From: Candidatus Zymogenaceae bacterium
Lineage (GTDB): Bacteria > Desulfobacterota > Zymogenia > Zymogenales > Zymogenaceae
Assembly: GCA_016931225.1 (NCBI GenBank)
Contig: JAFGFE010000027.1
Coordinates: 1-64,000 of the forward strand
Direction: 5' to 3'
Length of the DNA stretch: 64,000 bases
Under the pieces are notes generated by a model. It made no database searches. It was not told where the DNA came from and saw only the letters and a list, made by a program, of their open reading frames with translations. Both the position numbers and the translations under genes were made by a program. The stretch's first letter is position 1; each line of letters begins with the position of its first letter. This document shows positions 20,733-47,967 of this stretch, piece after piece.

Positions 20733-20947
20733 GGAAAAGTCTGCCCGTCGATTCATATTCTTCATGATGCTATTCCTTATGGGTCATACTGTCGGTACGG
20801 TGAGCATGAGGGACGTTTCAACTCTGTGTCTCCGGACCCGCCGGTAGGTCCCGCACATCACCAAGCTCAGTGTAAATAAGGTTAGGGCGCGGCGGGTCCG
20901 GGGGCGGCAGAGACGTGAACAACCGGAACGAAAGAGAGATAAGAGAT

Positions 20948-21289
20948 ATGGCGGATATCCCGACCGGCGGCATGAAGGCCACAGTGATGCGGATCATCGA
21001 GACGCTGGGCGAATCGATGGATTTCCAGCGCCGGGACGCCCTGGGGGAATGGGGGGCCGCGTCTACGGGTGTTGTGGTACACACCCAACCCGTCGGTTCC
21101 ACCCACATGCGGGATCATACGGGCATCGGCGTTGAGGGATGCCGGTTGTGTTTTGCCGGGTCCGATGCGGATATCCTCCCCGGAGACAGGACGGCCCTCG
21201 AGGGATCATGGCACCTGGTGACGCGGCTTTTGGACCGAGAGACGCATCTCGAGTTTCAACTGGAAAAGACAGCCGAGGCGGTGGAGTGA
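20948..21289 (+). CDS. Phage head-tail joining-like protein (candidate)
   Basis: 113 residues from ATG 20948 (an in-frame GTG at 20915 is possible). The pattern MRIIETLGESMDFQRRDALGEW, then beta strands, then CRLCFAGSDADILPGDRTALEG resembles small head-closure or stopper proteins in which an OB/SH3-like barrel carries an oxidised Cys pair, but the match is by layout only. It is followed by tail-terminator-like and tail-tube-like genes in the order used by tailed phages. Confidence 0.55.
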   Translation: MADIPTGGMKATVMRIIETLGESMDFQRRDALGEWGAASTGVVVHTQPVGSTHMRDHTGIGVEGCRLCFAGSDADILPGDRTALEGSWHLVTRLLDRETHLEFQLEKTAEAVE

Positions 21290-21323
21290 TATCACACCTG
21301 CACCGGTTTTTTAAGCGGGCGAC

Positions 21324-21770
21324 ATGGCACAGACATTTGAGACGGAAATTGAACGGCTGCTGTACGAGACGCTGACCGGGGACGACGCCCTGGCGACTCT
21401 TCTGGGCGCGGACGAAATGGATCCGCGGGTATATCTCTCGTGGAGGACGAAAGAGTGCCCCCTGATATCGGATTCCAAGCCCGGATACGTGATGATACGG
21501 CTCGATTCAGCCGATCAGCCCCAGAGGGTGGGCGGGACCGTGGACGACTGGCGGGAGCGCTATCTTGTGAGTCTTTTCTCGCTGCCCGAGAAGAGGGAGC
21601 TTCGCCGTGAGGTCGTCGATCGGTTTCGCACGCTGTTTCACCGACAAAGCTTTGTGACCGAGAGCTTTCTTGTCTATGATACGGTCGAGATCGCGAGGGA
21701 GGAGCGGGCGACGGATGATCGGATCGTGGAGCTGATGTATACCCTTTCGATACGATTTCTACCGCGGTAG
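21324..21770 (+). CDS. Phage tail terminator-like protein
   Basis: 148 residues: the N-terminal helix FETEIERLLYETLTGDDALATLLG, then PRVYLSWRTKECPLISDSKPGYVMIRLDS, then ERYLVSLFSLPEKRELRREVVDRFRTLFHR. This arrangement is characteristic of tail completion/terminator proteins (gpU or DUF3168-like) that cap the tail tube. Located between a head-closure-like and a tail-tube-like gene. Confidence 0.65.
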   Translation: MAQTFETEIERLLYETLTGDDALATLLGADEMDPRVYLSWRTKECPLISDSKPGYVMIRLDSADQPQRVGGTVDDWRERYLVSLFSLPEKRELRREVVDRFRTLFHRQSFVTESFLVYDTVEIAREERATDDRIVELMYTLSIRFLPR

Positions 21771-21813
21771 ATCCGACCGACATGGTTTTAACACCGCGAC
21801 AACGGAAAGAGAG

Positions 21814-22584
21814 ATGGGAAGCGACAAACTGGACAGATCGGCGGTGGGCGTTATTGAGGTGTTCACCGACGAGGGATGGGTCGATCTCGGCATTATCCAT
21901 GAGGAGGTCATTCGGGTAAACGGTGTGGAGATGCCCCATATCGACACAACCGACCGCCCCTTCGGCATCGACCGGATACTGGTGAAGGATGTGTCGGTGG
22001 ATATCGATTTCATCTGGGCGGAAGTGGGAGATATCGCCCTCTGGAGGCTGGTGATGGGCGGAGGGGCCGTGACCGTGACCGAATCCGGAACCGAGGATGT
22101 CGCCGACGAGGAGGTGACCCTTTCAGGCACCGCATGGACGCCTATTTTCCACGCCGCGGACTTTATGACCGACTGCACGGTATCGGTACACGATACGGCG
22201 GGGGGCGGCGTGGCGTATGCACAGGATGTCGACTACTACCTGGATCGCAGGGGGGGACACCTCGTGCGCATTCCGGGGGGCGCGATAACCGACGGACAGA
22301 CGGTCTTCGTCGATTATCGGCGGCGGTGTCTCTCCGGCCGCTGTTTCCATCCCTGGGAGGGGGGTGAGGCATACACTACTTCCCTTCGCCTGACGAAGCC
22401 GCTCACGGGCGGGGACGTCTTTCGCGTCACCCACAGCCGGGTTGTTTTCTCATGTTCCGTCGAGCTTCCCCTGGCGCCGGGGAGTGAGGGGAAATGGGCC
22501 GGGGTGAAGAGTGGCGTCAGGTTCCTTAAGGATATAGAAGGCATATACGGGCCCTTCGGCCGATGGGAGATATACACGCCGTGA
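21814..22584 (+). CDS. Phage tail tube-like protein
   Basis: 256 residues, almost entirely beta: VGVIEVFTDEGWVDLGIIHEE, ILVKDVSVDIDFIWAEVGD, an inserted immunoglobulin-like part (AWTPIFHAADFMTDCTVSVHD), and the C-terminal GDVFRVTHSRVVFSCSVELPL. This fits phage major tail proteins that polymerise into the tube. No sheath gene is seen, so a siphovirus-like tail is most likely. The next expected genes, tail chaperone and tape measure, are absent or truncated. Confidence 0.65.
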   Translation: MGSDKLDRSAVGVIEVFTDEGWVDLGIIHEEVIRVNGVEMPHIDTTDRPFGIDRILVKDVSVDIDFIWAEVGDIALWRLVMGGGAVTVTESGTEDVADEEVTLSGTAWTPIFHAADFMTDCTVSVHDTAGGGVAYAQDVDYYLDRRGGHLVRIPGGAITDGQTVFVDYRRRCLSGRCFHPWEGGEAYTTSLRLTKPLTGGDVFRVTHSRVVFSCSVELPLAPGSEGKWAGVKSGVRFLKDIEGIYGPFGRWEIYTP

Positions 22585-22595
22585 GGGGCAACAGA

Positions 22596-22778
22596 ATGAG
22601 AGAAGACTCCGATTCAAATGTACAGAAACCGGACCGAACATCGCAAAACGATGCCCTGCGGTATACGCTGGGCTTGGATATCATTAATGCGATGAATGAT
22701 GTGGGACTTGGAGGGTCGGTATCAATTTTTACTAACAAGAACTATGGCTCCAACGAGAAAAAGAATTCAGCCAGGTAA
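22596..22778 (+). pseudogene. Truncated phage gene at island junction (possible tail chaperone start)
   Basis: A 60-codon frame from ATG 22596 with a GAGGGG ribosome site. The first part (RTSQNDALRYTLGLDIINAM) has the GC-rich composition of the phage block; from about 22725 the sequence turns AT-rich and the protein ends in an unstructured NKNYGSNEKKNSAR. It lies where the tail assembly chaperone normally sits. I read it as the 5 prime end of a phage gene cut by insertion of the AT-rich island; a genuine small protein remains possible. Confidence 0.5.
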
Positions 22779-22948
22779 TATAGTGTGTAAAGTAATGATG
22801 AATTGAAAGGTTCCTAGATATTCTTATAAATATATTTTGATTTGCTTTTAATCCCTGCATTTGATATATATTTTAAGCCAAAAGAAATAATCATAAACTT
22901 TTGAAACATAGAGAAAAGATAAAAAACAATACATAACAAATATAAAAA

Positions 22949-23710
22949 ATGTACAAAGAAATTCAATACAAGAAAACTTATTTAAAAGAAGTCATTGTTC
23001 GCATTGATTTCTCTGCTCATTTCAAGAATCTACAAAAAAATATGCCTACAAACATATCTAATAAAGTTCTGGAACGCTTTTCTATTAGTGAGCCAGCAAA
23101 TATGATAGCACAAGAGTTCCAGGTTTCTCCAAAAGGAGTCAAACAGCAACAAGAACATTTTATGCAATGGAACTATTATGGACGTAATAGGGAAAAGAGA
23201 CTTACAATTGATATGGAAAAGTTTTTTATATCATATTCTCGATATTCGAACTTTGAAGAACTTAAAGAGGATTTTCTAGGAATACTAGACTTACTATTCA
23301 AGGAAGATATTGAACTTAGAGGAAAAAGATTAGGATTGCGATATATAAATAATATAAAAATGAAAGATTGTGATCCTTTCAATTGGGAGAAATATATTGA
23401 TAAAAAACTATTATGCCTATTTAACAGGTTTCATGATGAAAGAAGTTCTATTACTCGTATATTTCATGTCGTAGAGTATAAACATGATAATGAAATTCAA
23501 GTTAAATTCCAATTTGGAGTACCTAACCCCGATTTCCCGGCAAAAATTACTCGACCTTTATTTGTTTTAGACATTGATGCATATATTCAAGAGCTTCTTG
23601 ATTTTCAACAGATTAAAAATCATTTAGAAAATTCGCATGATTATATACAAAGATTATTTGAACAAAGCATTACTAGTGACTTGCGAGAAATTATGAATGA
23701 AGAAGAATAA
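22949..23710 (+). CDS. TIGR04255-family protein
   Basis: 253 residues, very AT-rich compared with its surroundings. The opening YLKEVIVRIDFSAHF and the central LRYINNIKM and FQFGVPNPDFPAKITRPLFVLDIDAY correspond to the sporadically distributed TIGR04255 family, found in mobile and defence-rich regions of bacteria and archaea; the molecular function is unknown. No membrane segment or nuclease motif is visible. It overlaps the next small ORF by 14 bases, so it may form an operon with the two ORFs that follow. Confidence 0.75.
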   Translation: MYKEIQYKKTYLKEVIVRIDFSAHFKNLQKNMPTNISNKVLERFSISEPANMIAQEFQVSPKGVKQQQEHFMQWNYYGRNREKRLTIDMEKFFISYSRYSNFEELKEDFLGILDLLFKEDIELRGKRLGLRYINNIKMKDCDPFNWEKYIDKKLLCLFNRFHDERSSITRIFHVVEYKHDNEIQVKFQFGVPNPDFPAKITRPLFVLDIDAYIQELLDFQQIKNHLENSHDYIQRLFEQSITSDLREIMNEEE

Positions 23711-23948
23711 TAATAACAACTCAGTGTACTTTAGAGAAGGGACTTCAACAGAAGAAGTCAGTTCCTTAGAATATACACTTGCACAAGAAACAACTTCTGG
23801 AGAAGATTCTCGGATAGAAGTATCAAAAAAGAAATCAACATCTACTGAACCTAGCAATGTAGGTGATTATCCTTTTTTAGATGATAAGGAATACGAAATC
23901 GGAAAACCCAAAAGAATTATCATACGAGGTAAGATTTTCTTTGGCTAG
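23697..23948 (+). CDS. Small Ser/Thr/Glu-rich protein in AT-rich island
   Basis: 83 residues, starting at an ATG that overlaps the TIGR04255 stop. It is rich in Ser, Thr, Glu, Lys and Asn (STEEVSSLEYTLAQETTSGE) and predicted largely disordered. Its 3 prime end overlaps the next frame by 68 bases. It may be an independent linker-type protein, or a frameshift in either may have split one longer gene, since the next frame starts in the same region without a good ribosome site. Confidence 0.45.
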   Translation: MKKNNNNNSVYFREGTSTEEVSSLEYTLAQETTSGEDSRIEVSKKKSTSTEPSNVGDYPFLDDKEYEIGKPKRIIIRGKIFFG

Positions 23949-24504
23949 AAAAGTAAGGGTTAGTAAAGAAGTAAGAGTATGCCAAGGTGACATTTTTAGT
24001 AATGTCGAAATGATCGAGTATGCAGTCGAGGATTCTGGAATATTTGAAGTATCAAAAATTGTCTTCCCATTAGTAATTGTACTTACACAAGATTGTGACC
24101 TAAAACAAGAATATAAAGTGCGATGGTCAAGAAATCCAAGTATTAAGCATGACAAATGGTTATTTTCTGTTCTTGTTGCTCCTTTATATAATTTGGATCA
24201 TGTTTTCAAAGGAGAGCACCTTTCTAGTCTTAATATGGAAATGTGGGTTATAGATTCAAAAACAACAAAAAAACATATTAGAAATAATGAAATCCCGAGA
24301 TATCATTTTATCACTGTTTCGGAAACAGACTCAAATTTGATTCCTGATTCTGTTATTGACTTCAAACATTATTTCTCTGTTAATGGCAATTATCTAAGAA
24401 GTCTACGAAAAGAGCATTTTGTTTGTCGTTTGGCTCCTCTTTTTAGAGAGGATGTTTCACAAAGATTTTCCCAATATCTTGCAAGAATTGGTCTTCCTGA
24501 TTAG
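23881..24504 (+). CDS. Unknown island protein with TQDCD motif
   Basis: Up to 207 residues; start ATG 23881, or TTG 23941 next to the stop of the previous ORF. The core VCQGDIFSNVEMIEYAV, then FPLVIVLTQDCDLKQEY, carries an acidic Cys-containing motif following two hydrophobic strands, and HDKWLFSVLVAPLYNLDHV follows. I recall proteins with this QDCD signature beside TIGR04255 genes, but I know of no experimental function. AT-rich, same strand and apparently co-transcribed with TIGR04255, so the two are probably a functional unit, plausibly in phage defence. Confidence 0.6.
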   Translation: MIRNTKSENPKELSYEVRFSLARKVRVSKEVRVCQGDIFSNVEMIEYAVEDSGIFEVSKIVFPLVIVLTQDCDLKQEYKVRWSRNPSIKHDKWLFSVLVAPLYNLDHVFKGEHLSSLNMEMWVIDSKTTKKHIRNNEIPRYHFITVSETDSNLIPDSVIDFKHYFSVNGNYLRSLRKEHFVCRLAPLFREDVSQRFSQYLARIGLPD

Positions 24505-24585
24505 AATTTGATATATCAAGCAATACCAAATATCCTTAAATTAGTGGTATAAGTCCTATAAATTAAAAAAGTTAAGGTTTTCACT

Positions 24586-24666
24586 AACAGTTGAGCGGCA
24601 AGAGGAATTGACTTCTTGTTATAAAAGGGCCATCCCCATGCAGTGACATGAGGATGGCGTACTGTT
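24586..24666. other. Structured element in the 24505-24894 gap
   Basis: No gene is seen between 24505 and 24894. Within it, AACAGT (24586-24591) pairs with ACTGTT (24661-24666), enclosing CAAGA/TCTTG (24599-24618) and a long hairpin with arms 24629-24640 and 24647-24658 (11 of 12 pairs, six-base loop). There is no T run, so it is not a normal terminator; a small RNA or a mobile-element remnant are options. Confidence 0.35.
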
Positions 24667-24894
24667 GACTGCTCTAGGAAAAAGGTATGAATTTAACAAC
24701 CTTTTACAGCCAGAAGAACATTATAACCATAGAGAAGAAGGTAATATAAAATAGGCTTTCGTCGCTATAGTTAAATGAAAAAGTCAAGAACCTTCCGTAC
24801 AGTATGACTTGTAGGAATTGCTGTTCAACAACTTTCTGACCCCCGCTTTTCCGTTTCCGCTCTCCTTTTGGAAACAGTCGTCAATATCCCGTCA

Positions 24895-26490
24895 TTATTC
24901 GGGGATTTTTCCATCGATGATGTCCAAGGCCACCTCCCGGTAGGCGTCCATGACGTAGGGAATACCGGTGACTTTTGTGCATTCCTCGGTCAAGGAGATT
25001 AGGTTGTCCCGGGAGATGAACGGGACGGCCCATTTGCGCGCCCCGGCCATGAGCTGTTGCAGTCCGACCCTGATTTTTTCCGTTGCGCTGTAGATACCGA
25101 CGGCGCCCAGGGGCAGAGAGTCCGTCTCTTTACCGAAGCGGGCCTTCAACTCCTCGTAGGCCACGAAAATCTCTTCCTTGGTGGAGCCGAACTTCGAGAC
25201 GGTTTTGGGCAGTCCTCCATCTTCTCCCTTGAGCCATTTCTGGATATTTTTTCCGACCATGCCCGGTATCATCAAGGCGCGACCCATGCACACCGCCTTG
25301 ACGTAGGGAGACCCCAGGGCCAGACACTTGAAAACGTGGTCTTCAGCGGAAAAGCCCCCGGCAAACGCCAGGTCCGGCACCGGCTCACCCCGATCGGCCA
25401 GGCGGTCGGCCAGCTCAGCGGCCATGGCGTGCAGATAGATGGCCGGGATGCCCCATTCGTTCATCATACGCCAGGGGCTCATGCCGGTGCCGCCCGGAGC
25501 GCCGTCAATGGTCAGAAGATCTATTCCCGCCTCGGAGGACCACTTGATGGCCAATGCAAGCTCCCGCATCGGGTACGCCCCGGTTTTGAGGGTTACCCGC
25601 TGAGCACCGAGCTTCCGCAGGCGTTTGACCTCATCCATGAATGATTCCTTGTCAATGAAGCCGAGACGGGAGTGGCGCTCGAACTGTTTGATGGCCCCGT
25701 CTTTGAAACCGGCCTGTATGGCAGGGTCCTCCGGATCCGGCGTAACGATATAACCCCGTTTTTTCAGCTCCTGGGCCCGCTCGAGATTGTCCACCTTGAT
25801 TTCTCCGCCGATGCACTTGGCCCCCTGACCCCATTTCAGCTCGATGGTGGTCACCCCCAGCTTTTCGATGACATATTCGGCGACTCCGAACGTGGTATCC
25901 TCCACATTGAGCTGTACCAATATATCGCCGTATCCGTCGTGGTAACGTCGATATTCCTCCACGCGGTTTCGCATGTTCGGCGCTTCTTTAACCTTGCCGT
26001 TTTTATCCAGCTCCAGTTTCGGATCGATGCCGCAGACGTTCTCGCCGCAGACCAGGCTGATGCCGCTGATGGCGGCGCCTATGGCGAAGTGTTCCCAGTT
26101 TACCCGGGCGATTTCTGTACTGCCCAGGGCGCCGGTAAAAATGGGGACCTTCATCTTAACCTTGTTTTTGGTACCGAATTCGGTCTCCGTATTCACCGCA
26201 GGGAATATTGCATGGTCGGAATTGGCTTTAATTCCCTCTGCACCCATGGCGTATCCCATGATGTTCAGGTGTGAATAGTCCACCGGATAGTCCTTGTCAG
26301 CCCCGGCGGTTATTTCTCCGTATGGCATGGGGTAGAGCAGTTCGCGTCCACGAAACGTGGATACAAACAGGTCACAACCGCCGCGGCATCCGTCAACGCA
26401 CCGGCTGCAGATGCCGGACTGGGGCGCCACGTTCCGGGAGCGATTCACGGTTAGAACCGCCTCGTTGGCGTTCGGTTTTTGCAGGTTCAT
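24895..26490 (-). CDS. FMN-binding glutamate synthase-family protein
   Basis: 531 residues corresponding to the FMN/[3Fe-4S] synthase domain of glutamate synthase large subunit. The Cys-rich N terminus (SGICSRCVDGCRGGCDLF) suggests an Fe-S site. VQLNVEDTTFGVAEY, IELKWGQGAKCIGGEI and TIDGAPGGTGMSPWRMMNEWG match the barrel that binds FMN and makes glutamate from 2-oxoglutarate and ammonia. The glutamine amidotransferase domain is missing, as in archaeal-type forms. AAGGAGAG lies before the ATG. Divergent from nrpR, with palindromic operators between, so nitrogen-controlled. The GltB partner subunit is not adjacent. Confidence 0.9.
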   Translation of the reverse strand: MNLQKPNANEAVLTVNRSRNVAPQSGICSRCVDGCRGGCDLFVSTFRGRELLYPMPYGEITAGADKDYPVDYSHLNIMGYAMGAEGIKANSDHAIFPAVNTETEFGTKNKVKMKVPIFTGALGSTEIARVNWEHFAIGAAISGISLVCGENVCGIDPKLELDKNGKVKEAPNMRNRVEEYRRYHDGYGDILVQLNVEDTTFGVAEYVIEKLGVTTIELKWGQGAKCIGGEIKVDNLERAQELKKRGYIVTPDPEDPAIQAGFKDGAIKQFERHSRLGFIDKESFMDEVKRLRKLGAQRVTLKTGAYPMRELALAIKWSSEAGIDLLTIDGAPGGTGMSPWRMMNEWGIPAIYLHAMAAELADRLADRGEPVPDLAFAGGFSAEDHVFKCLALGSPYVKAVCMGRALMIPGMVGKNIQKWLKGEDGGLPKTVSKFGSTKEEIFVAYEELKARFGKETDSLPLGAVGIYSATEKIRVGLQQLMAGARKWAVPFISRDNLISLTEECTKVTGIPYVMDAYREVALDIIDGKIPE

Positions 26491-26520
26491 GAAAACTCTC
26501 CTTGAAATAATTGCTTAATT

Positions 26521-26536
26521 CGGCAATAGAATGCCG
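26521..26536. promoter_or_regulatory. NrpR-type operator 1, CGGCA-N6-TGCCG
   Basis: Perfect 16-base palindrome in the leader of the glutamate synthase-like gene, about 30 bases before its start codon. Confidence 0.65.
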
Positions 26537-26621
26537 ATGTTTATATGTCCCGGAAACGGGAAACGATGCCTGTCGCGCCGTTTGCAATGAGGAAACATAT
26601 ACCGGGAAAAGGACCATGAAA

Positions 26622-26666
26622 CGGCATAGCATTGCCAATATATCCAAAGAGAAATGCTAATGTCAA
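26622..26666 (-). promoter_or_regulatory. Promoter of the glutamate synthase-like gene with operator 2
   Basis: On the minus strand TTGACA (26666-26661), 18-base spacer and TATATT (26642-26637), or ATATAT with 17. Operator CGGCA-N6-TGCCA (26622-26637) covers the -10 edge and the expected transcription start, a classic repressor position. The leader to the ATG is about 140 bases. Confidence 0.7.
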
Positions 26667-26734
26667 GATAAAATATTGATTTTATTTGCATAATATTCTT
26701 GGGAATTTCGCCTATCAAATTAAGGAAAATATAT

Positions 26735-26748
26735 CGGTATAAATGCCG
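26735..26748. promoter_or_regulatory. NrpR-type operator 3, CGGTA-N4-TGCCG
   Basis: A 14-base palindrome with one mismatch, extended by flanking TAT and ATA to an outer match of 20 bases. It lies midway in the intergenic region and carries the shorter four-base spacer. Confidence 0.55.
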
Positions 26749-26878
26749 ATAATCTTTCCTGCCATGTGACCCAACGGCAGACATACCGAATCCGGGACGA
26801 TCTCCGTATAATCTGATGAAAAAAGTGGTGTTATATTGGGGAAATATCTCGTTGAACGTATCGAAAAAACGCATATAA

Positions 26879-26892
26879 CGGCATTATTGCCG
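26879..26892. promoter_or_regulatory. NrpR-type operator 4, CGGCA-N4-TGCCG
   Basis: Perfect 14-base palindrome ten bases upstream of the nrpR -35 box. Confidence 0.6.
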
Positions 26893-26901
26893 AAAAGGTG
26901 G

Positions 26902-26930
26902 TTGACAATTGGCATGGTTGCCGATATTAT
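26902..26930 (+). promoter_or_regulatory. nrpR promoter containing operator 5
   Basis: TTGACA (26902-26907), exactly 17 bases, TATTAT (26925-26930). The spacer contains the palindrome TGGCA-N4-TGCCG (26910-26923), so a bound repressor would block RNA polymerase. The ATG at 26937 begins seven bases after the -10 box, at the expected transcription start. Confidence 0.75.
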
Positions 26931-26936
26931 GTGTCC

Positions 26937-27947
26937 ATGACGGAAAAAATTGAAAAGAAAAAACTGGCCATTCTTCGTATCCTCAATGACGAGAAAGCCC
27001 CCCTTTCCAGCCCCAGGATAACCGATTCCCTCAATGCGCTGGGCCACGATATCAGCGAGCGGACCGTTCGCCTCTACCTGGGAGAGCTTGATGATAACGG
27101 TTTAACCGAAAATTTGGGAAAACGCGGCAGAATGATTACCGATCTCGGGCGGCGGGAGCTCTCCTCCGCCCGGGTGTATGAAAAAGTGGGGTATCTTGCG
27201 TCAAAAATCGACCGGCTGACCTATCAGATGGATTTTGACCTGGCACGGAGATCCGGCACTGTCGTTTTAAACGCGAGCCTCATAGAAAGGGGAAATCTCG
27301 CCCGTTCCGTTCCGCTCATAGAGAAAGTGTATGCCCATAAGTACTCGATGGGCACGCTGACGGCACTCTTCGGAGAGAATGAACGTATCGGGGAAGTAAT
27401 CGTCCCTTCGGGATTCGTCGCCGTGGGTACCGTCTGTTCCGTGACCATCAACGGGGTGCTTCTCGCCCACGGTATTCCCACCCAGTCCCGCTTCGGGGGG
27501 CTCCTTGAGCTGATGGGGGGGCGCCCCACCCGCTTTGTAGAGCTCATACACTACGAGGGGACAACCCTTGATCCCCTTGAGGTGTTTATCAGGAGCGGAA
27601 TGACCGATTATACCGGAGCAACACAAACGGGATCCGGCCGCATCGGCGCCAGCTTTCGTGAGGTTCCCGCTGAGAGCCGATCCCGGGTGCTGGAGCTGGC
27701 GGAGTATCTGGAAGATGCGGGTCTCGGTGGATTTATGAGCGTTGGGTGGCCGGGGCAGCCGCTTTTGGAAATCCCCGTGGGGGAGGGACGGGTGGGCGTT
27801 GTGATTATCGGGGGTCTCAATCCGGTGGCCATCCTGGAGGAGCAGGGCATTCGCGTGCGACGCCCCGGCGCCCTCAGCGGCTTGATGGAATATTCCCGAC
27901 TGTTTCCCTTCCAGGAATTACAGGAGAGGGCCCGCCCCTTTCTCTAA
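26937..27947 (+). CDS. nrpR: NrpR-type nitrogen regulator (winged helix plus NrpR/DUF128 domain)
   Basis: 336 residues. An N-terminal winged helix (KKLAILRILNDEKAPLSSPR, LGHDISERTVRLYLGELDDN, residues 6-65) is followed by one NrpR domain (YAHKYSMGTLTALFGENERIG, VPSGFVAVGTVCSVTINGVL, GGLLELMGGRPTRF and VVIIGGLNPVAILEEQG). In methanogens NrpR represses nitrogen-assimilation genes and is relieved by 2-oxoglutarate; bacterial homologues usually have a single effector domain, as here. The frame's earlier start at 26898 lies inside the promoter and is rejected. No ribosome site precedes ATG 26937. Autoregulation and control of the divergent synthase are likely from the five operators. Confidence 0.9.
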   Translation: MTEKIEKKKLAILRILNDEKAPLSSPRITDSLNALGHDISERTVRLYLGELDDNGLTENLGKRGRMITDLGRRELSSARVYEKVGYLASKIDRLTYQMDFDLARRSGTVVLNASLIERGNLARSVPLIEKVYAHKYSMGTLTALFGENERIGEVIVPSGFVAVGTVCSVTINGVLLAHGIPTQSRFGGLLELMGGRPTRFVELIHYEGTTLDPLEVFIRSGMTDYTGATQTGSGRIGASFREVPAESRSRVLELAEYLEDAGLGGFMSVGWPGQPLLEIPVGEGRVGVVIIGGLNPVAILEEQGIRVRRPGALSGLMEYSRLFPFQELQERARPFL

Positions 27948-28216
27948 GTCAATCTTCGTCTCCCTAAAAAAATCCTCAACACTTTCATACTCATAGTGTC
28001 CTAGTCATGCATGTCATGCCGAAGACGTTCAGGATACCTGTACGTGTGCGGGTGTTCATACGTCCAGGTATGTCTCTCGGCTCGTCTTCCGACGAACCGT
28101 CTTTTTTTCCCCGTAAAAAATCCTTGTTTATATTTTCTATAGACGGAACGGGACTGTGTCATACTTGCCGCACATGTGAAGTGACACATGCAATCCTTTC
28201 TCGGGAGAGTTCTCCG

Positions 28217-28606
28217 ATGACCACGGTACTGGGCGGCGTCGCCCTTGATCACGATCCGATCTGGATCGATGAGTTCAATCAAGAAATATATCCGGGGACA
28301 TCATATGTCGCCCTGGATGGGACGGAAAACATGTATGTGGGATTTCGGATGGGACACTTTTCCATCACACTGGAGGCGACGGAAAAAACCGGCTGGCTTT
28401 CCAGAACAACGGTTGACGCCTTGATAGAGATGGCACGGGTGCGTGATGCCTCTTACACTCTCAGTCGTAACGGCGCGGATTGTACCGTACGTTTCAGGCA
28501 CGAGGTGTCCGGCGGGCCGATACAGATGGAACTGCTCGCCCCGACGGCGTTTCCGGAAGACGATACCTGGTATTATGGCAAAATTTTTTTGATGTGCACA
28601 GGATGA
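28217..28606 (+). CDS. Phage tail-associated protein (candidate)
   Basis: 129 residues from ATG 28217; the longer frame to 28007 lacks support. Beta-rich with FRMGHFSITLEATEKTGWLSR, TVDALIEMARVRDASYTLSR and DDTWYYGKIFLMCTG. It opens phage block 3 and its stop overlaps the next ATG (ATGA). It may be a distal-tail or tail-tube paralogue; identification rests on context. Confidence 0.55.
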   Translation: MTTVLGGVALDHDPIWIDEFNQEIYPGTSYVALDGTENMYVGFRMGHFSITLEATEKTGWLSRTTVDALIEMARVRDASYTLSRNGADCTVRFRHEVSGGPIQMELLAPTAFPEDDTWYYGKIFLMCTG

Positions 28607-28746
28607 TAACACTTTACTACAGAGGATGCGAGATTACGTTCCCGAATATCGAGGAATGTGAGAAATTCTGTATTCACAATGCCATCGCTGACCTGATTTG
28701 TGCCTATGAAGAGGCATGGGAGGCGTTGGCGAATGTTCAGGGATAA
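28603..28746 (+). CDS. Small phage protein, 47 aa
   Basis: Starts in a four-base ATGA overlap with the preceding stop and ends three bases before the next ATG. TLYYRGCEITFPNIEECEKF followed by an acidic helix (LICAYEEAWEALANVQG). Tight coupling on both sides is the main evidence; no family recognised. Confidence 0.55.
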   Translation: MITLYYRGCEITFPNIEECEKFCIHNAIADLICAYEEAWEALANVQG

Positions 28747-28749
28747 ACC

Positions 28750-30816
28750 ATGACGATTTCACGTTATTACCCAAACAGACGAACCGGTCCCACCTCTGGG
28801 GGTGGGATGAGCGACGATCAACTTCCCTCCAATGTGTCCCAAAACCTTTTTCCGAACGTCACCGAATCAGAAAGAACATCCGGGTTGACTCGAGTCGTAA
28901 AATACTTCGTTAAATGCATATCCGGCACGGCAAACAAGGCGAAGGAGTTCATCAGTAGGCTTTCCACCGCCGACGACCGGGTGGTGTTGAAAAAGGGGAC
29001 GGACCTTGATACAAGGGCGACGGCGAAGACGTACGGATGGATTGAATATGACATCGCTTGGTCGGCCCGGACCGTCACGATTGCAAATGCTGTGTCTCTG
29101 GCCAAAGGTGACGAGGTGTACTTCTTTAATCCCGACGGGACGTATAAGGGGTATGCCTTCGTTTCCTCTGACACATCACATTCCACAACCTTCGTTATCG
29201 ATGCGATGAGTGACGGCTCAGACCCGGTAGCGGGGGACATCGCCGCAACATTCTGGCACGGGGCGGGGGATTTGGCCGAAGCGATCACCGCGTCGAACAC
29301 CCCTTGTACCATCGTGGCCGACTTTGAGGACGCCGACGGGATATTTCCATCTTCCCTTGTCGGACTCATAAATCATGGTAATCCCAACCCGTCTACGGGC
29401 CGACCTCCCGTTGAATATCTGACGGTAGATAGATGCGCGTTCACAATAGGGCAGGGGAATGTGCATGATGACGACTGCTCATCTCTCACTGGATGGACCG
29501 ACGGCGACTTATCGGGAGAGAGCACACAGGAGACGTTTCAAGATAGAGATACGTTCAAGTTCACCATTGCATCCATCGGTGGCGGACACAAGGCCGAGCG
29601 ATATCGGAATGTAGGAACACTCGAAGATTCTTTCACGGTTCAGATTCGCACCTATTTTAATGATATAGGAACAACGGGAGACGCAGACAACTTTCTCCTG
29701 ATAGTGGACAACGGGACTATCGTTTTATCTGTACGATTCGGTACGGATGGGATGTTCATTTATGACGGGGCGGCATGGAATGAGGTGGGGACAAACATCG
29801 TAGAAGAGGATACATGGACGGTGTGGCGGCTTGTGGTGGACGGTTCCTTAAGTGGATCCGAAACCGTTGATCTCTACAAGGACGACTTTCTTATTGAATC
29901 CGGGATAGACTGTTCCGATGCCTCCGGTGCTACCGATGGGCTGGTGACGTTACGTCAGGAAGGGACAACGACGAGCGGAGTCACGTCATATATCGATTTT
30001 CTCAAAATTTCGGATGGGTCCCCTAACCTGACGGGAGAGTGTTTTATCGCTACGGAGACGACAATTCAATCAGACTACGCTGTCAAGACCCGTGCGGAAG
30101 TGCAGGGATCGGAAAGCGAAAACTTTAATGTGGACGGTCTCACCCTGATAGTCCAAGTTGATAGAGGCGACTCTCAGTCCGTGACCCTTTCGGGTAACGG
30201 CCAAACGGCCGCCCAAGTGGTGGCTCAAATTTCTCTCACAGGGGCGACGACATATGAATATACTTCGGGGAAAGTGGCAATTCGGTCGGATTCATACTAT
30301 ACCACCGGTTCCATCCAGATACTTTCAGCATCAACCGCCGATATAGTCCTCGGGCTTTCAAATTCCATTGTCTATGGAACCGACGGCATGGTGGCATCGT
30401 GTGTATTACAGTTGGGTGATATCGAACCGACTGTAACCACTCCCGTGGCTTCTGGATCGGGAATATACGATCATTCTACATATCCGATTTTGACATATAA
30501 AAAAGGGACTCTCACGGCTGATGTGACCGTGACGTTTTCCAATGATACAAACTTCACCGTGTCAATGGTGGTAGATGGGAATTCCACGAACCTGGGGGCG
30601 GGTGATATCAACACCGATTTTCAGATCCCGCACCAGGGAGAGTACTACTTCACGATTCAATCGGACGGTTGGGGTGGGACCTGGGTGGCGGCAAATACCT
30701 TATCGTTCTCCCTCGTTCAGAGCGCAAGGGGTGTGTGGGCGAAAGAGGTAGTCCCCGCCGCCACGGAGGCGAGTTCGGGGAACAAGGTGGAGATAAGTTG
30801 TCGGGCGCAGTCGTAA
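28750..30816 (+). CDS. Large phage tail/fibre-like protein with LamG-like domain
   Basis: 688 residues, acidic, Thr/Ser/Gly-rich, no signal peptide. Residues 60-180 form a beta domain (TYGWIEYDIAWSARTVTIAN, GDEVYFFNPDGTYKGYAFV). About 225-420 looks like a concanavalin/LamG-type sandwich (SFTVQIRTYFNDIG, DNFLLIVDNGTIVLSVRFG, TWTVWRLVVDGSLSG, VTSYIDFLKISDG). The C-terminal part is beta-rich. It probably forms a fibre or receptor-binding part of the tail. The stop is immediately followed by the next ATG. Confidence 0.65.
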   Translation: MTISRYYPNRRTGPTSGGGMSDDQLPSNVSQNLFPNVTESERTSGLTRVVKYFVKCISGTANKAKEFISRLSTADDRVVLKKGTDLDTRATAKTYGWIEYDIAWSARTVTIANAVSLAKGDEVYFFNPDGTYKGYAFVSSDTSHSTTFVIDAMSDGSDPVAGDIAATFWHGAGDLAEAITASNTPCTIVADFEDADGIFPSSLVGLINHGNPNPSTGRPPVEYLTVDRCAFTIGQGNVHDDDCSSLTGWTDGDLSGESTQETFQDRDTFKFTIASIGGGHKAERYRNVGTLEDSFTVQIRTYFNDIGTTGDADNFLLIVDNGTIVLSVRFGTDGMFIYDGAAWNEVGTNIVEEDTWTVWRLVVDGSLSGSETVDLYKDDFLIESGIDCSDASGATDGLVTLRQEGTTTSGVTSYIDFLKISDGSPNLTGECFIATETTIQSDYAVKTRAEVQGSESENFNVDGLTLIVQVDRGDSQSVTLSGNGQTAAQVVAQISLTGATTYEYTSGKVAIRSDSYYTTGSIQILSASTADIVLGLSNSIVYGTDGMVASCVLQLGDIEPTVTTPVASGSGIYDHSTYPILTYKKGTLTADVTVTFSNDTNFTVSMVVDGNSTNLGAGDINTDFQIPHQGEYYFTIQSDGWGGTWVAANTLSFSLVQSARGVWAKEVVPAATEASSGNKVEISCRAQS

Positions 30817-31320
30817 ATGGAAACTTATTATCTCACTCCCGTTGAATCTACACCCCAGGTGTACTATCTCAAACCGGTTGAGTCGAATAGACAGAACTAT
30901 TACTTAACTCCGATTAATTCGGCGGGGGATAAAAACGAGGAGTGGAAGTTTATTTGCACAATCGCGGTAGACAGTTCACTGTGGAATATGCTTTCTTTGA
31001 ATCCTGGAGATTACAGCGGCTATATCGGATACATTACGCTTCAATCATATGAATCCGTAAAAGTCGAAGCAGTAAGCGGTTACTTTAACGATGGGGCGGA
31101 AATAAGACCTTATAGAGCATTTGTCAATCTTGTTACCAAAGTTGATTATGCAACGCTCGGGACGTACGGTGAATATGACGATCCGTATTATGCGATACTT
31201 CAATTTGAGGGGAAAGCGGTGGAATTGACGATTGGAGACGATAAACAATTATGGTGGGGCGTTGATGGAATCGCAACACCGAATATCGGCGTGATGCTTA
31301 TAAGAGTTTACGCAAAATGA
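30817..31320 (+). CDS. Phage structural protein with YYLxPVES repeats
   Basis: 167 residues. The first 35 residues are three tandem 12-residue repeats, YYLTPVESTPQV, YYLKPVESNRQN, YYLTPINSAGDK, followed by a beta-rich domain (EEWKFICTIAVDSSLWNML, YSGYIGYITLQSYESVKVE). The gene overlaps the next by four bases. The repeats may be a trimerisation or docking element linking the neighbouring fibre and hub proteins. GC content falls here compared with the upstream gene. Confidence 0.6.
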   Translation: METYYLTPVESTPQVYYLKPVESNRQNYYLTPINSAGDKNEEWKFICTIAVDSSLWNMLSLNPGDYSGYIGYITLQSYESVKVEAVSGYFNDGAEIRPYRAFVNLVTKVDYATLGTYGEYDDPYYAILQFEGKAVELTIGDDKQLWWGVDGIATPNIGVMLIRVYAK

Positions 31321-34300
31321 GCTTTTTTGTAGTAGAACATTTCAATTTACCTAATGGTGCGGTTCAGGAATCGATTAAAACCGCAACGAAAAATGACGGT
31401 AATGTTTACACATCTAACGGGTGGGGCATAACTGCCACGTATGCAGACACAGACGCAGCAATGATTACGTGCGACAAGGGGTTGAAAAAAGCGGAATTTG
31501 TTACAATACCATTTCGAACATCTATAAAATACAAGCTGTCGGCATTGAGAGATGGTGATTATATCAGGCTGTTTGTTATTCAGTCGTTATCAGCACAGCC
31601 AGAGCCATCAGGTTCGTTCACCAATTGGGTATTATCATGTAACCTTTATCGAATTGGTTCTAACTATCGAGAATATTGGTTTATTACTAATTCATCGGGA
31701 ACAGCAAGAGGATACAACGGAATTGGTGGAACATGGGGGACTACAAGTAATTATGTCAGGACTGTAAGTCTTAACACAGAATACACACTTATAATTCAAT
31801 ATGATCCGACAACAAAGACCGTTTTTTTAAATAATGGTATACAATCAACCGATTCGGAGCAATTACAGTATTACGATGATCATTACTGGTGGTTTGTGGG
31901 GGACAACAACGATAATATTTGGCATGGTATAATTAAATTCGATTATATTATCGTTGAACAAACGGAAATCGCAAATACCTTTATCTCGCATAACAATCTC
32001 CTGACAGAGAAATATCACTCAAATCACTTCAACGGTTCCGCGCTGTGGGTTTTGAATGATTTCACAACGGAAGTTGCGGATACACTTACAATCAAAAACG
32101 ATATTCTTGATTATGATCTCGTTGAGTCGGATTCTATCGTCCTCAATCGCATCGGCGGGGGTGGATCGCAGGTATATATTCCATCAGTCAAGGTACTATT
32201 GAATGAAAGAGACGTTACCTCACAAGTGCTTTCGTACTTCATAGATTGGAGTGAGCGATTCGTCAAAATGTTGAGAATCGATTTTGACTGGTCAATCTCG
32301 GCGGAAATCTACCGAAAGAATAATGCCGACTTCAAGATCCCTCAGATAGAGATTCAGGTCGATCACGATTCATCGGGGATGTATATCACGCGGGGAGAAT
32401 TCTTTATCGAGGAAATCTCCGAAACCATGAGCAACGGAAGGCATGCAAAACGGATCTCAGGGAGAAGCAAAGCCGCACTCCTTGATAGGCCGTATTCCGC
32501 TCAGAACACCGTCTCCTATGAGAACACCACAAAGCGGGCGATAGTGACCAATTTGGTGGAGGAAGCCGGGCTTGAATATGAATGGTGCCTCCCCGACGGA
32601 CCGATTGAGTACCACACTTTCGATGCCCGCACTCCGATGGAAGTCATTAAAGAAGTAGTCTCGGCGGTCGGCGGGCATATTTCAACCGGCTATAATGACA
32701 AACTCTATTTTCATGCAAATGATTACACTCCGAGAAATCATCCTCCTGTGTTCTCTGTGGATTCTTCGGATATTCATCAGATAGAGATACTCGAAGAAAT
32801 CCCGCAGTCTTTCAACAAGATTGTAGTAAAGGGAAGGGCTAATAACGAGGCGACCTTTAGAGCATGGGCCGAAGTGGAGCTTGTCTCCGTGGATTCGCGG
32901 GGAAATTTTAAATCCACGTTGGCCGCCGATGGGAATGATTACACAGTGTTGATTGCAACCTGCTACGACTCTGAGGGGATGTTGGTGGATACAGGATTGA
33001 TTGAAGAAGAATCTGCCACACCTTCGAACGCAAATACAATCGCCGTCTTAAAGCGCATCGCAAACGGTGGGGTTGTGGGGATATGGCCGGACATCGGCGG
33101 CGGGGTGCCGGGCACGAAGGTCGACGGGCCGTATATCTTCGACGATTTTGTGATTACCACGACAGGGAATATGCTGGAAGGGCCGCACCTCGTCACCTAT
33201 CACGGCGGGGATTCGGTATCTTTCTCCGTAGAAGGACCGGGGATTGTAGAGGAAAACTCTGTTTTGGTCGAGAACGGGCAAGGGAGAACAAAGCTCTACG
33301 GAAACGAGCTTGGTGCGGGTACCATTTATGTCAAAGCCACCTATGACGGTCAGGAATCCAATCCCGTCGCTTTGATTCTCGGAGATCCGCGGGTGGGAGA
33401 TTTGGATGCGAACGCTAATCCCTCATCTCTCCTTGTCAAAGAGACGAGTGTTATCACTGCAAGAGTCTACGATCCCGACGGCGATCCTGTGGGGGATGGG
33501 TACACTGTCAAGTTCAAGATAATCGCCGGGAACGGTGCGCTTTCGGCAGACTTAGACATCACGACTACAAACACCATAGAAAACGAGGAGCAGGTGTCAA
33601 GCTCCTATACATCTATCAGGGTGCAAAACCCCATATCGAACCTCACACATATCTATGCACTGAAGGATGATTCCCATGAGTATCAGGGAAGAACGATTGA
33701 CGATGATGAGATAGATACTTCTTATGATTACGCAACCGGGGCCATAACGGAAGGGTCTACGATCACACTTTCAGACAATCTCCCGAAACCTCAGACGCGG
33801 GTAGTCGTCACCTATAAATCGGGCGGTACGGCGCAGATCGTATACACCGCACCGTCCTTTGTCGACAGGGAGGGGGAGGAAGTTGTCATAGAGGTGTGGG
33901 CAGGAGGCTTGAATCACCTGGTGTTCATTGATGTGGGGCGAAAAGAGGCTACAACCCCGTCGGTGGGCGGCGGTAAGCGGGTAGGCGTTGTTACTTTCCA
34001 CGTGGATCACACCCCAACAAGCGCGGAAAGGGGACGGATCACGCTTTCGGAGCCGATTCCCCAGGTTTCGGGATTTGTGGCGGTACTCGGGTCGTATACG
34101 CTTGACGGCCTTTCAGCCGGGGTCTCGAATGGTCAGGTAGTTGGATTAATGAAGATCGGTGAAAACGTGGTAGCCACGATTCATGGAGAGCGGGACACAT
34201 CGGCGAAAGGTGACTACTGGAACGGAGATTATATCCGAGGAAGTAGGCGGGTATATATCATCAATACCGAAACACCCGTGCCGAATGCAAGTGTGAAAAT

Positions 34301-34586
34301 AGAATGGAATGGAGGGGATGAATCCGGCGGCCACACCGAATCGGGTCTTAAAACTAACTCCGAAGGAGTATTCACCTTCACGATGGGGGTAAGCGGTACT
34401 CATATTATCACCATTACACACGATAATCCCCAGAGTCCGGATGCACCGCTGGGGTTTCTGGAATACTTGGGGACAATCACCATCCCAGGACAGGTCGGAG
34501 ATGAACGGGGGACCGTCGGAGATCAAGTTTTTTATAAGCATATGTCAGGGTCGTTTTCTGTGCCCATTATTTACGAGAAGATATGA
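31317..34586 (+). CDS. Multidomain phage tail hub/spike protein
   Basis: 1089 residues. Residues 1-225 form a lectin-like sandwich (FVTIPFRTSIKYKLSALRDG, YTLIIQYDPTTKTVFLNNG). About 290-520 resembles baseplate hub proteins (LNERDVTSQVLSYFIDWSE, RHAKRISGRSKAALLDRPYS, RTPMEVIKEVVSAVGGHIS). About 560-800 contains immunoglobulin-like invasin/Big_1-type repeats (PSSLLVKETSVITARVYDPD), and the end carries a carboxypeptidase-regulatory-like domain (NTETPVPNASVKIEWNGG). The first 700 bases are markedly AT-rich compared with the rest, consistent with a swapped receptor-binding module. Confidence 0.7.
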   Translation: MSFFVVEHFNLPNGAVQESIKTATKNDGNVYTSNGWGITATYADTDAAMITCDKGLKKAEFVTIPFRTSIKYKLSALRDGDYIRLFVIQSLSAQPEPSGSFTNWVLSCNLYRIGSNYREYWFITNSSGTARGYNGIGGTWGTTSNYVRTVSLNTEYTLIIQYDPTTKTVFLNNGIQSTDSEQLQYYDDHYWWFVGDNNDNIWHGIIKFDYIIVEQTEIANTFISHNNLLTEKYHSNHFNGSALWVLNDFTTEVADTLTIKNDILDYDLVESDSIVLNRIGGGGSQVYIPSVKVLLNERDVTSQVLSYFIDWSERFVKMLRIDFDWSISAEIYRKNNADFKIPQIEIQVDHDSSGMYITRGEFFIEEISETMSNGRHAKRISGRSKAALLDRPYSAQNTVSYENTTKRAIVTNLVEEAGLEYEWCLPDGPIEYHTFDARTPMEVIKEVVSAVGGHISTGYNDKLYFHANDYTPRNHPPVFSVDSSDIHQIEILEEIPQSFNKIVVKGRANNEATFRAWAEVELVSVDSRGNFKSTLAADGNDYTVLIATCYDSEGMLVDTGLIEEESATPSNANTIAVLKRIANGGVVGIWPDIGGGVPGTKVDGPYIFDDFVITTTGNMLEGPHLVTYHGGDSVSFSVEGPGIVEENSVLVENGQGRTKLYGNELGAGTIYVKATYDGQESNPVALILGDPRVGDLDANANPSSLLVKETSVITARVYDPDGDPVGDGYTVKFKIIAGNGALSADLDITTTNTIENEEQVSSSYTSIRVQNPISNLTHIYALKDDSHEYQGRTIDDDEIDTSYDYATGAITEGSTITLSDNLPKPQTRVVVTYKSGGTAQIVYTAPSFVDREGEEVVIEVWAGGLNHLVFIDVGRKEATTPSVGGGKRVGVVTFHVDHTPTSAERGRITLSEPIPQVSGFVAVLGSYTLDGLSAGVSNGQVVGLMKIGENVVATIHGERDTSAKGDYWNGDYIRGSRRVYIINTETPVPNASVKIEWNGGDESGGHTESGLKTNSEGVFTFTMGVSGTHIITITHDNPQSPDAPLGFLEYLGTITIPGQVGDERGTVGDQVFYKHMSGSFSVPIIYEKI

Positions 34587-35170
34587 TACCGTCAAAACTC
34601 TACGACATCACCGCCCGGCAGATCAAAAAGGAGGCGCCGGACAACATCGCGGTAGGAACCATCACCGCAGTGGTGGACACCCGCCGATACTCCGTATTGA
34701 TGGAGGGGAAATGGAGGGGGAGTGTGCGGGCGTCGGCCGATACGGAGTTTTCTGTCGGGGACCGGGTCAATCTGATTCTCCCCGGAGGCGATCTGAACAA
34801 CGCCCAAATTCTTGGACTGTCGTCAAAGACCAATCCGGTTATGGCGACGGTGATATACGGGGAGGGAGACTACGAGAAATCGGGGATCGAGGATCCCTTG
34901 ATCACGACGGAAGACGAAGCCTTTATCCGGGCGAAAGACGAGCTGAAAGCCGGGAAGATCGGGCTTCGTTTCACTGTGCCGTTCCTGACCCGGGCAGGAA
35001 TGGAGAACCTTCGTCCAGGCTCCGTCTTGAGAGTCGTCGCTCCGGAAGCCGGGCTTGTGGGGGACAATCTCTCCATTGAGAGCATGAGAGAATCCTTCGA
35101 TAGTAAAAACGGGCTTCTGGTAAGCGTGACCGGGGTTAAGTGGGAGGAGTGGGAAGGCGGGGAAATGTGA
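34583..35170 (+). CDS. Phage baseplate assembly-like OB-fold protein
   Basis: 195 residues. AVGTITAVVDTRRYSVLMEG and FSVGDRVNLILPGGDLNNAQILGLS form a small five-stranded barrel typical of gpV/gp5 N-terminal OB domains, followed by a helical and beta C-terminal part (AKDELKAGKIGLRFTVPFL). It overlaps the hub gene by four bases, as expected for hub and spike components that assemble together. Confidence 0.6.
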   Translation: MIPSKLYDITARQIKKEAPDNIAVGTITAVVDTRRYSVLMEGKWRGSVRASADTEFSVGDRVNLILPGGDLNNAQILGLSSKTNPVMATVIYGEGDYEKSGIEDPLITTEDEAFIRAKDELKAGKIGLRFTVPFLTRAGMENLRPGSVLRVVAPEAGLVGDNLSIESMRESFDSKNGLLVSVTGVKWEEWEGGEM

Positions 35171-35556
35171 TGGATGAATTGAGCGCGGTCGCAGTCACAG
35201 CGTTGTTCTCTCTTTTTGTGGGCGTGGTCGGCAAAATCCTATTCGACTGGCTCAAACATCGAAACGGCGCGAGGTTCGAGATCAAGGATATTGATATTAA
35301 GGATCTCGCTAAAACCGTTTATTCAGTAAGTGAGAGGGTGGGGCACATCATGGACATTCAGTGCAAAACCGATGGAGATGGACTGCCGATGGTCTACATG
35401 CCCAGGGGGTACAGGGACGTCATGGACAGGGTGGCGGAGAGTGTCGCAAAATTCGGCTGGGGTGTCGAACAAAACACAAAGGCGTTGAAGGAATTCACCG
35501 AACAGATGCGAAAACTCACCGGCGTTATCGAGAAACAGTCGAAGAATGGGAGATGA
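35170..35556 (+). CDS. Membrane-anchored phage accessory protein (holin/XhlA-like layout)
   Basis: 128 residues from ATG 35170, which overlaps the previous stop. One N-terminal membrane segment (AVTALFSLFVGVVGKILFDWL, residues 7-27), then a basic and helical cytoplasmic part ending in QMRKLTGVIEKQSKNGR. It is just before the endolysin gene. The layout recalls membrane-tethered lysis accessory proteins, but the length is greater than that of XhlA. Confidence 0.55.
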   Translation: MDELSAVAVTALFSLFVGVVGKILFDWLKHRNGARFEIKDIDIKDLAKTVYSVSERVGHIMDIQCKTDGDGLPMVYMPRGYRDVMDRVAESVAKFGWGVEQNTKALKEFTEQMRKLTGVIEKQSKNGR

Positions 35557-35561
35557 GGGGC

Positions 35562-36005
35562 ATGGCGAAGATGACGAGTGCCGATTGGCGGGCGGTGAAT
35601 TATTTCACGCCAAGAGAGTTCCATCATCCTGATAAAATGGAGACGGACATTATTGCATTGCTCGACGATCTCCGGGACGTGTTCAAATTCCAATTCGTTA
35701 TACACAGCGATTGGAGAAAACCGCCCGATGGCGTCCCGCCGGAACTGTGGCCGAGTGAGCACAATCACGGGAGGGCGGTGGATTTCCATGTGGAAAACCT
35801 TGACTATCTTGACGCGGCCGATCTGATGAAATTCAGCCTCCGGAGACTCGATGTGTGGCAGTCCGTCGGTCTTGGTCTATATCCGCACTGGAACAATCCG
35901 GGCTTTCACCTCGACACAAGGGGATATATGGCGCGGTGGGGGGCGGTACACAGGAACGGAAAACAAACGTACGTCACGTATAACGAGGCGTATAGACTCA
36001 TCTGA
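35562..36005 (+). CDS. Peptidase M15-type endolysin
   Basis: 147 residues. Zinc-binding SEHNHGRAVDF matches SxHxxGxAxD of the D-Ala-D-Ala carboxypeptidase/L-alanyl-D-Glu endopeptidase family, and PGFHLDTRGYMARWG supplies the second His. No signal peptide, so release needs a holin. GGGAG lies nine bases before ATG 35562; ATG 35553 is less likely. Members cut peptidoglycan stem peptides. It heads the lysis cassette. Confidence 0.85.
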   Translation: MAKMTSADWRAVNYFTPREFHHPDKMETDIIALLDDLRDVFKFQFVIHSDWRKPPDGVPPELWPSEHNHGRAVDFHVENLDYLDAADLMKFSLRRLDVWQSVGLGLYPHWNNPGFHLDTRGYMARWGAVHRNGKQTYVTYNEAYRLI

Positions 36006-39977: not shown

Positions 39978-40835
39978 TCAGAAAGGTATTTCGTCAACTA
40001 CGACTTCAACTTCGAAATGGTAATCGTAATTACCCTCAGATGTCTGAAGACGTAGAAGTATTCTACCTTTTAGTGTATATTCATTAAGTATTTCGTCTCC
40101 AGCAAAAACAGAAGCTATTATTTTTCGTGATTTAAGATTTAATGGAGCCCATGACCCTTTAACAAATCTATTTAGGGGTGTTAATAAAAGATGGCGCGAC
40201 TCAAATCCTTCAATATCTGATTCCTTTGATGGACGTTTATTATCATCCTGATAAAAAGTCCAACCACTCGATGTATATATATAAATTGCTTCTATTGTTG
40301 GAGAAGGTATGTCAGAATCATTTGATAAGTCTATTTGGTAATAAACCTCTCCAGTGGCATCGAATTTGTCTATTTCTAAGTATCCTCTGACTGGTTTAAG
40401 AGTTACTTTTATATTTCTTGTTTTAATTTTTTCTATATCGTTTTTTATCCAACTTAATTCAGCCTTCAATTTTTCTTTTAGTGATGTTATTGAGTTTTCA
40501 TAAACAATGTGTCTATGATGTTTTAGATCAAAAGGAATATCCGATGAAGTTTTTGTCAGGTGAATACAAGTTTTATTTTTTGCATGTGCATAACCAACTT
40601 CATAGAAAACATTGGGATTTTGGTCTGACATATCAGCAATAACTACATCTGCTCCTTCTATTTGTCTATATATTCTATCAAGAATTCCCTCTCTGAATAT
40701 TTGTTCGTCAACTCTTTCAGCTTTAAAGTTTAACTCTTCTGCAACTGCCTTTATCCCAAGTTTATATATATCGTCATAAGTAGAGTCAAAAGGCATAAGA
40801 ACAAATGCAAACAAAGAATTGTCTTTTTTTACCAT
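39978..40835 (-). CDS. Nucleoside 2-deoxyribosyltransferase/TIR-like fold protein (defence candidate)
   Basis: 285 residues, AT-rich in a GC-rich context. The N-terminal 120 residues (FAFVLMPFDSTYDDIYKLGI, RVDEQIFREGILDRIYRQIE, ADVVIADMSDQNPNVFYEVG, YAHAKNKTCIHLTK) match the nucleoside 2-deoxyribosyltransferase-like Rossmann fold related to TIR and SLOG domains that split or bind NAD-like nucleotides; the Glu in FYEVGYAHA is the expected catalytic residue. The C-terminal half is an unknown beta-rich domain that may sense or bind a partner. AAGGTGACC precedes the ATG. It is an orphan with its own promoter. Confidence 0.75.
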   Translation of the reverse strand: MVKKDNSLFAFVLMPFDSTYDDIYKLGIKAVAEELNFKAERVDEQIFREGILDRIYRQIEGADVVIADMSDQNPNVFYEVGYAHAKNKTCIHLTKTSSDIPFDLKHHRHIVYENSITSLKEKLKAELSWIKNDIEKIKTRNIKVTLKPVRGYLEIDKFDATGEVYYQIDLSNDSDIPSPTIEAIYIYTSSGWTFYQDDNKRPSKESDIEGFESRHLLLTPLNRFVKGSWAPLNLKSRKIIASVFAGDEILNEYTLKGRILLRLQTSEGNYDYHFEVEVVVDEIPF

Positions 40836-47941: not shown

Positions 47942-47967
47942 AAAAAACCTCCATGAAGGATAGTTGT

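Follow-up and report, generated by a model that had tools for sequence, protein, structure and literature searches.

In the 64,000-nucleotide stretch of Candidatus Zymogenaceae DNA analysed here (the window), three small genes are packed into an AT-rich insert, which raises the question of whether they act as one system and, if so, of which kind. The insert measures ~2.2 kb (22750..24900, borders approximate) and has a GC content of ~31% vs 57%, the GC profile running at 0.20-0.44 inside (0.20-0.38 from about 22.8 to 24.6 kb) and at ~0.6 on both sides; a search of its flanks for direct repeats yielded only an unconvincing 11-bp AT match. All three genes lie on the plus strand, each overlapping the next. 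Gene 1 (22949..23710) encodes a 253-aa protein of the TIGR04255 family (NCBIfam, 102.8 bits at a cut-off of 30) that aligns with profile positions 1-252 of 252 and is thus a full-length member. Gene 2 (23697..23948), which overlaps the end of gene 1 by 14 nt, encodes an 83-aa low-complexity protein with the tail YEIGKPKRIIIRGKI, kept in 25 relatives. Gene 3 (23941..24504) encodes a protein of 187 aa, counted from a TTG codon, with a TQDCD motif at 24085..24099. A first-pass annotation had described an AT-rich insert with a TIGR04255 gene, a small ORF and an LTQDCD ORF, and the ORFs, the GC profile and the NCBIfam score bear this out. The LTQDCD ORF is present, but its start, originally placed at ATG 23881, has been replaced by TTG 23941, which is probably correct because position 23881 is still within the conserved C-terminal region of gene 2 and the TQxCD protein of relatives starts where gene 2 ends; GAGGTAAG (23926..23933, plus strand) is, by sequence and spacing to this TTG, the probable ribosome-binding site of gene 3. 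Pfam, PADLOC and PHROGs gave no usable match for the three window proteins, PADLOC assigning none of them to a known anti-phage model, and NCBIfam gave no credible match for the small protein or the TQDCD protein.

The trio recurs far beyond the window. A TQxCD profile scan of ~85,000 species genomes, the pattern of which demands the core [VA][IV][VI][LM]TQ[DS]CD and samples only part of the TQxCD family, returned 60 loci, which are spread over many phyla of bacteria and also include archaea. TIGR04255 lies directly upstream on the same strand in 44 of these 60 loci (our own count), among them one in which gene 1 is split into two pieces (L060) and one from Gracilibacteria (L067:9023-10540) that is intact only when TGA is read as Gly (code 25). 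In the other 16, the contig end cuts the locus (3), gene 1 is lost and gene 2 kept (1, L046) or there is another or no gene 1 (12). Among 395 genomes of the window's own phylum, matches to the TQDCD protein occur in 6, several directly behind TIGR04255. Genes 1 and 3 have diverged together: their distance matrices over 36 loci correlate with r=0.86, a value that 0 of 5000 permutations reach. The identical order of the trio across dozens of unrelated genomes is more than chance. Of the earlier proposals, a recurrent TQDCD partner of TIGR04255 has thus been found, and a lack of recurrent association is clearly not what the survey gave; the suggestion of a stable multi-part system on mobile DNA, of toxin-antitoxin type, gains support from the survey and the correlated distances, with three parts.

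The loci that depart from the standard layout are instructive as well. At L086:9007-9423, a DUF6941 protein (34.3 bits, cut-off 27) precedes gene 2 and TQxCD in the usual position of TIGR04255, which suggests that it plays the part of TIGR04255 there, and proteins without assignment occupy the gene 1 position at L039, L070, L089 and L033. At L087, L095, L096 and L099, a small gene alone precedes a distant TQxCD gene; this layout resembles an ordinary two-gene toxin-antitoxin pair and counts for reading the trio as a toxin-antitoxin-like module. Two further copies may be inactivated toxins: a TQxCD gene cut short to 73 aa (L028:2439-2660) and one that has lost the motif cysteine, reading SNSDID (L124).

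The predicted structure of gene 3 points in the same direction. An AlphaFold2 model built from 55 aligned relatives, plasmid-collection rows being left out, has a mean pLDDT of 93, and a Foldseek search against the PDB places MazF toxins on top (E 2e-4, probability up to 1.00, TM by target length 0.55-0.71), the first 26 matches all being MazF or CcdB. Gene 3 is thus predicted to adopt the SH3 barrel fold of MazF/CcdB-like toxins. This link is invisible to sequence methods: gene 3 and its distant relatives match neither Pfam PemK_toxin nor the NCBIfam toxin models, hhalign finds no sequence link between TQxCD and the PemK proteins of sibling modules, and a profile search against PDB sequences returned no match. 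In the 55 TQxCD sequences, Q15, T49, Q50, C52, D53 and F141 are invariant, and G16, D17, L54, E170, F176, R182, L185 and P186 nearly so. By eye, the catalytic Arg and Thr of MazF are apparently replaced in this family, with FP for RP and A/C for T. Since these residues seem to be missing and a PemK/MazF sequence link was not found, gene 3 may be no RNase, or even no toxin; as an enzyme it would have an active site different from that of MazF. Profile comparison also relates the window family to larger WRQG...(T/S)(Q/H)xCD proteins (probability 95.9, E 6e-9). We propose TQxCD as a candidate, previously undescribed MazF-fold toxin class with its own QGD...TQxCD signature.

Between the two large genes, a short ORF of about 57-145 aa is nearly always found. 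An alignment of 25 window-clade members shows a shared ending that approximates Y..(s/g)KPrR.iIRakI, the remainder being of low complexity and little conserved; by this conserved tail, gene 2 qualifies as a genuine gene, and we propose it as the candidate antitoxin. Pfam and NCBIfam recognise no antitoxin domain in the gene 2 product of the window, which counts against this assignment. Gene 2 of the WRQG-type relatives gives weak helix-turn-helix (HTH) matches, and public plasmid annotation likewise says HTH. The middle genes of sister modules with PemK and PIN third genes (L007, L020) have no usable antitoxin match in Pfam or NCBIfam, and a plasmid search with one of them returned no match; their tails resemble what we take to be typical MazE and VapB tails.

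Such sister modules emerge when the survey is started from gene 1. From three samples, 68 TIGR04255 loci were parsed, of which 64 have enough flanking sequence. By loose ORF criteria, two close co-directional ORFs follow TIGR04255 in 60 of the 64 and one precedes it in 11, the background by similarly loose criteria being a further, fourth gene in 19 of 47 TIGR04255 loci. TIGR04255 thus generally heads three-gene operons. The third gene is exchangeable: among the 68 loci, it belongs to the TQxCD superfamily in 17, to a family with an SVTRH motif in 11, is HEPN-like in 6 (representatives just below the Pfam cut-off), PIN in 5 and PemK in 5 (representatives above the cut-off in both), and belongs to DUF7689 in 4 and to a two-member family in 2. 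Against reading this position as a toxin slot stand the remaining 18 third genes, which have no family assignment, and the 17 of the SVTRH, DUF7689 and L023 families, which have no known function.

One clear case of exchange, L005 vs L007, separates the parts of gene 2. The TIGR04255 proteins of these loci are 85% identical, and a TQDCD gene comes third in L005 and an unrelated PemK gene in L007; in gene 2, the N part matches at 46 of 80 positions, the C part at 9 of 39. In L007 vs L008, both with PemK, gene 2 is alike in both parts. Such a pattern would arise if TIGR04255 were matched to the N part of gene 2 and the toxin to its C part, and it suggests that the two parts are separable; L022/L125 is a second, weaker swap. 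Among the other third genes, those of the SVTRH type (L014-L018, L117, L138, L145 and others) carry motifs like LSVTRH and HANI.GW; L015, the one checked, matches no Pfam or NCBIfam model, and they are perhaps another toxin class. In L006, L009, L010 and L021, DUF7689-type proteins with a YNCIAWAA motif stand in the toxin place, a slot that suggests a toxin role for DUF7689.

Gene 1 is less easily placed. Its AlphaFold2 model is confident (pLDDT 95), and the PDB fold matches are weak (TM about 0.3) and scatter over AdoMet decarboxylase, TBP and guanidino kinases, with no informative relative among them; a viral fold library gave one better match, which is unnamed. A SecB-like chaperone was considered and rejected, as no SecB is among the PDB fold matches listed and both fold libraries yield weak or unnamed matches. 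In the alignments, few polar residues of TIGR04255 are invariant, as opposed to the invariant polar set of TQxCD. The family was found in 31 of 395, 28 of 274 and 16 of 297 genomes of the three groups sampled, about 5-10%, and its distribution is sporadic. No paper in the literature covered, which takes in no preprints and a minority of subscription papers, names TIGR04255 or DUF6941, and a prior description is possible. We propose gene 1 as the component that guards the antitoxin and senses the trigger.

Taken together, the three genes probably form a tripartite toxin-antitoxin-like module, which could work in the following manner: The product of gene 3 would be the toxin, with its MazF/CcdB fold and the QGD ... 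TQxCD signature. The product of gene 2 would be a small, largely disordered antitoxin, the conserved C-terminal strand of which neutralises the toxin, and its N part would be held by TIGR04255, which may thereby stabilise the antitoxin and serve as the trigger. When TIGR04255 is titrated or altered, for instance by a phage product, the antitoxin would be lost and the toxin freed.

The genomic surroundings are consistent with mobile cargo. In the window, phage tail-type genes precede the module (20915-22584; tail tube, sub-threshold), and a tail protein and an endolysin follow further downstream (28007-36002), so that the AT-rich module and two metabolic or regulatory genes (24895-27947) split a run of phage tail-type genes. 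About 20 kb from the module, another AT-rich insert holds a complete QatABCD anti-phage system on the minus strand (44974-49893; PADLOC scores of 668 bits for QatA, 224 for QatB, 539 for QatC and 297 for QatD). An AT-rich single gene on the minus strand (39978-40835) matches a TIR-type effector (PADLOC, 2e-11) and is a possible defence gene. In two IMG/VR contigs the trio adjoins an endolysin or a peptidase, one of them also having an integrase, and TIGR04255 is also present in an archaeal virus, there with a third gene that is HEPN-like by eye. On a Methylocystis plasmid, the trio stands behind an AbiJ-like gene, with two small WGR ORFs between. Unannotated operons on plasmids of Klebsiella, Pseudomonas putida, Acinetobacter and Meiothermus (L153, L154, L155, L156) run from TIGR04255 through gene 2 to a relative from the TQxCD superfamily; on the first three, gene 2 is either labelled HTH (L153 and L155) or unnamed. 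PADLOC on the 112 near neighbours detected restriction enzymes, MkoA and PD-T4-6 with 2-3 members each, as raw counts for near neighbours alone. The copies on phages and plasmids together with the nearby QatABCD fit mobile cargo and make an anti-phage function plausible, although they are no proof of it.

Several of these observations can be read differently. The phage tail-type genes on both sides of the module might mean that three unrelated cargo genes came to lie side by side by accident, which we regard as most improbable: the identical order in 44 of 60 loci, across many phyla, and the correlated divergence contradict it. A more serious contender is an addiction system, with which prophages, plasmids and islands stabilise themselves by the same biochemistry and without phage-triggered defence; phage contigs and plasmids carry the module, its distribution is sporadic, and we consider this account possible, if somewhat improbable. 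A dedicated third protein and toxins that change while gene 1 stays the same suggest selection on the trigger instead, and QatABCD is close by, neither of which is decisive.

It is also conceivable, though unlikely, that gene 3 is no toxin at all and uses its MazF/CcdB barrel for binding or regulation, TIGR04255 being the active part. The apparent absence of the MazF catalytic residues, as seen by eye, and of a sequence link to PemK would agree with this, as would the enzymes, AdoMet decarboxylase and guanidino kinases, among the weak fold matches of TIGR04255. PemK and PIN proteins, however, occupy the gene 3 slot in sister operons, and it is TQxCD that has a set of invariant polar residues, those of TIGR04255 being few.

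The tripartite toxin-antitoxin-like reading finds its closest parallel in the toxin-antitoxin-chaperone (TAC) systems, such as HigBA-SecB(TA) of M. tuberculosis and CmdTAC. In TAC, a dedicated antitoxin segment is bound by the chaperone, and this pair can be grafted onto other toxin-antitoxin systems (PMC5105189); in CmdTAC, the toxin is released once the capsid protein of a phage has titrated the chaperone (PMC11618068). Both arrangements have three small genes, which in the module would likewise code for a toxin, a partly disordered antitoxin and a third partner, and in both a single kind of third protein occurs with toxins or proposed toxins of several kinds. In TAC, the antitoxin segment bound by the chaperone and the portion that neutralises the toxin can be separated (PMC5105189, PMC11618068); for the module, the L005/L007 swap suggests the same of gene 2. 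Unlike in TAC, the third protein is TIGR04255, which has no SecB among its listed fold matches and is encoded by the first gene; the proposed binding segment lies, to judge from the same swap, in the N part of the antitoxin, whereas the ChAD of TAC is C-terminal; and the proposed toxin class is new. The module is not TAC by definition, since its third protein is not SecB-like; on present evidence it may be regarded as working like TAC without SecB, a variant of tripartite toxin-antitoxin systems. With MazEF, PemIK and CcdAB it shares the predicted fold of gene 3, an antitoxin-like small gene immediately ahead of the proposed toxin gene and, in sister modules, a canonical PemK in the same slot; it differs from them by a proposed toxin without sequence similarity, with the invariant QGD...TQxCD and a length of 187 aa vs about 110, and by the extra TIGR04255 gene.

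A wider proposal is tentative, and we hold it slightly more doubtful than not: TIGR04255 may be the antitoxin guard and infection sensor common to three-part immune toxin-antitoxin systems that form a large class not yet described, parallel to the SecB-based TAC and with exchangeable toxins; the commonest of these in our survey, QGD...TQxCD, would be an enzyme of MazF fold whose active site, of a new type, contains a cysteine. For TIGR04255, an NCBIfam family of unknown function, the tie to toxin-antitoxin-like operons offers a function open to direct testing and, if confirmed, would provide the first role for an orphan family, with SecB no longer the one type of third component. From the natural series of toxin swaps one could learn how toxins are held and let go in these modules, and TQxCD, if the prediction is true, would be a new kind of toxin with a MazF fold, relatives of which reside unannotated on plasmids of clinical bacteria.
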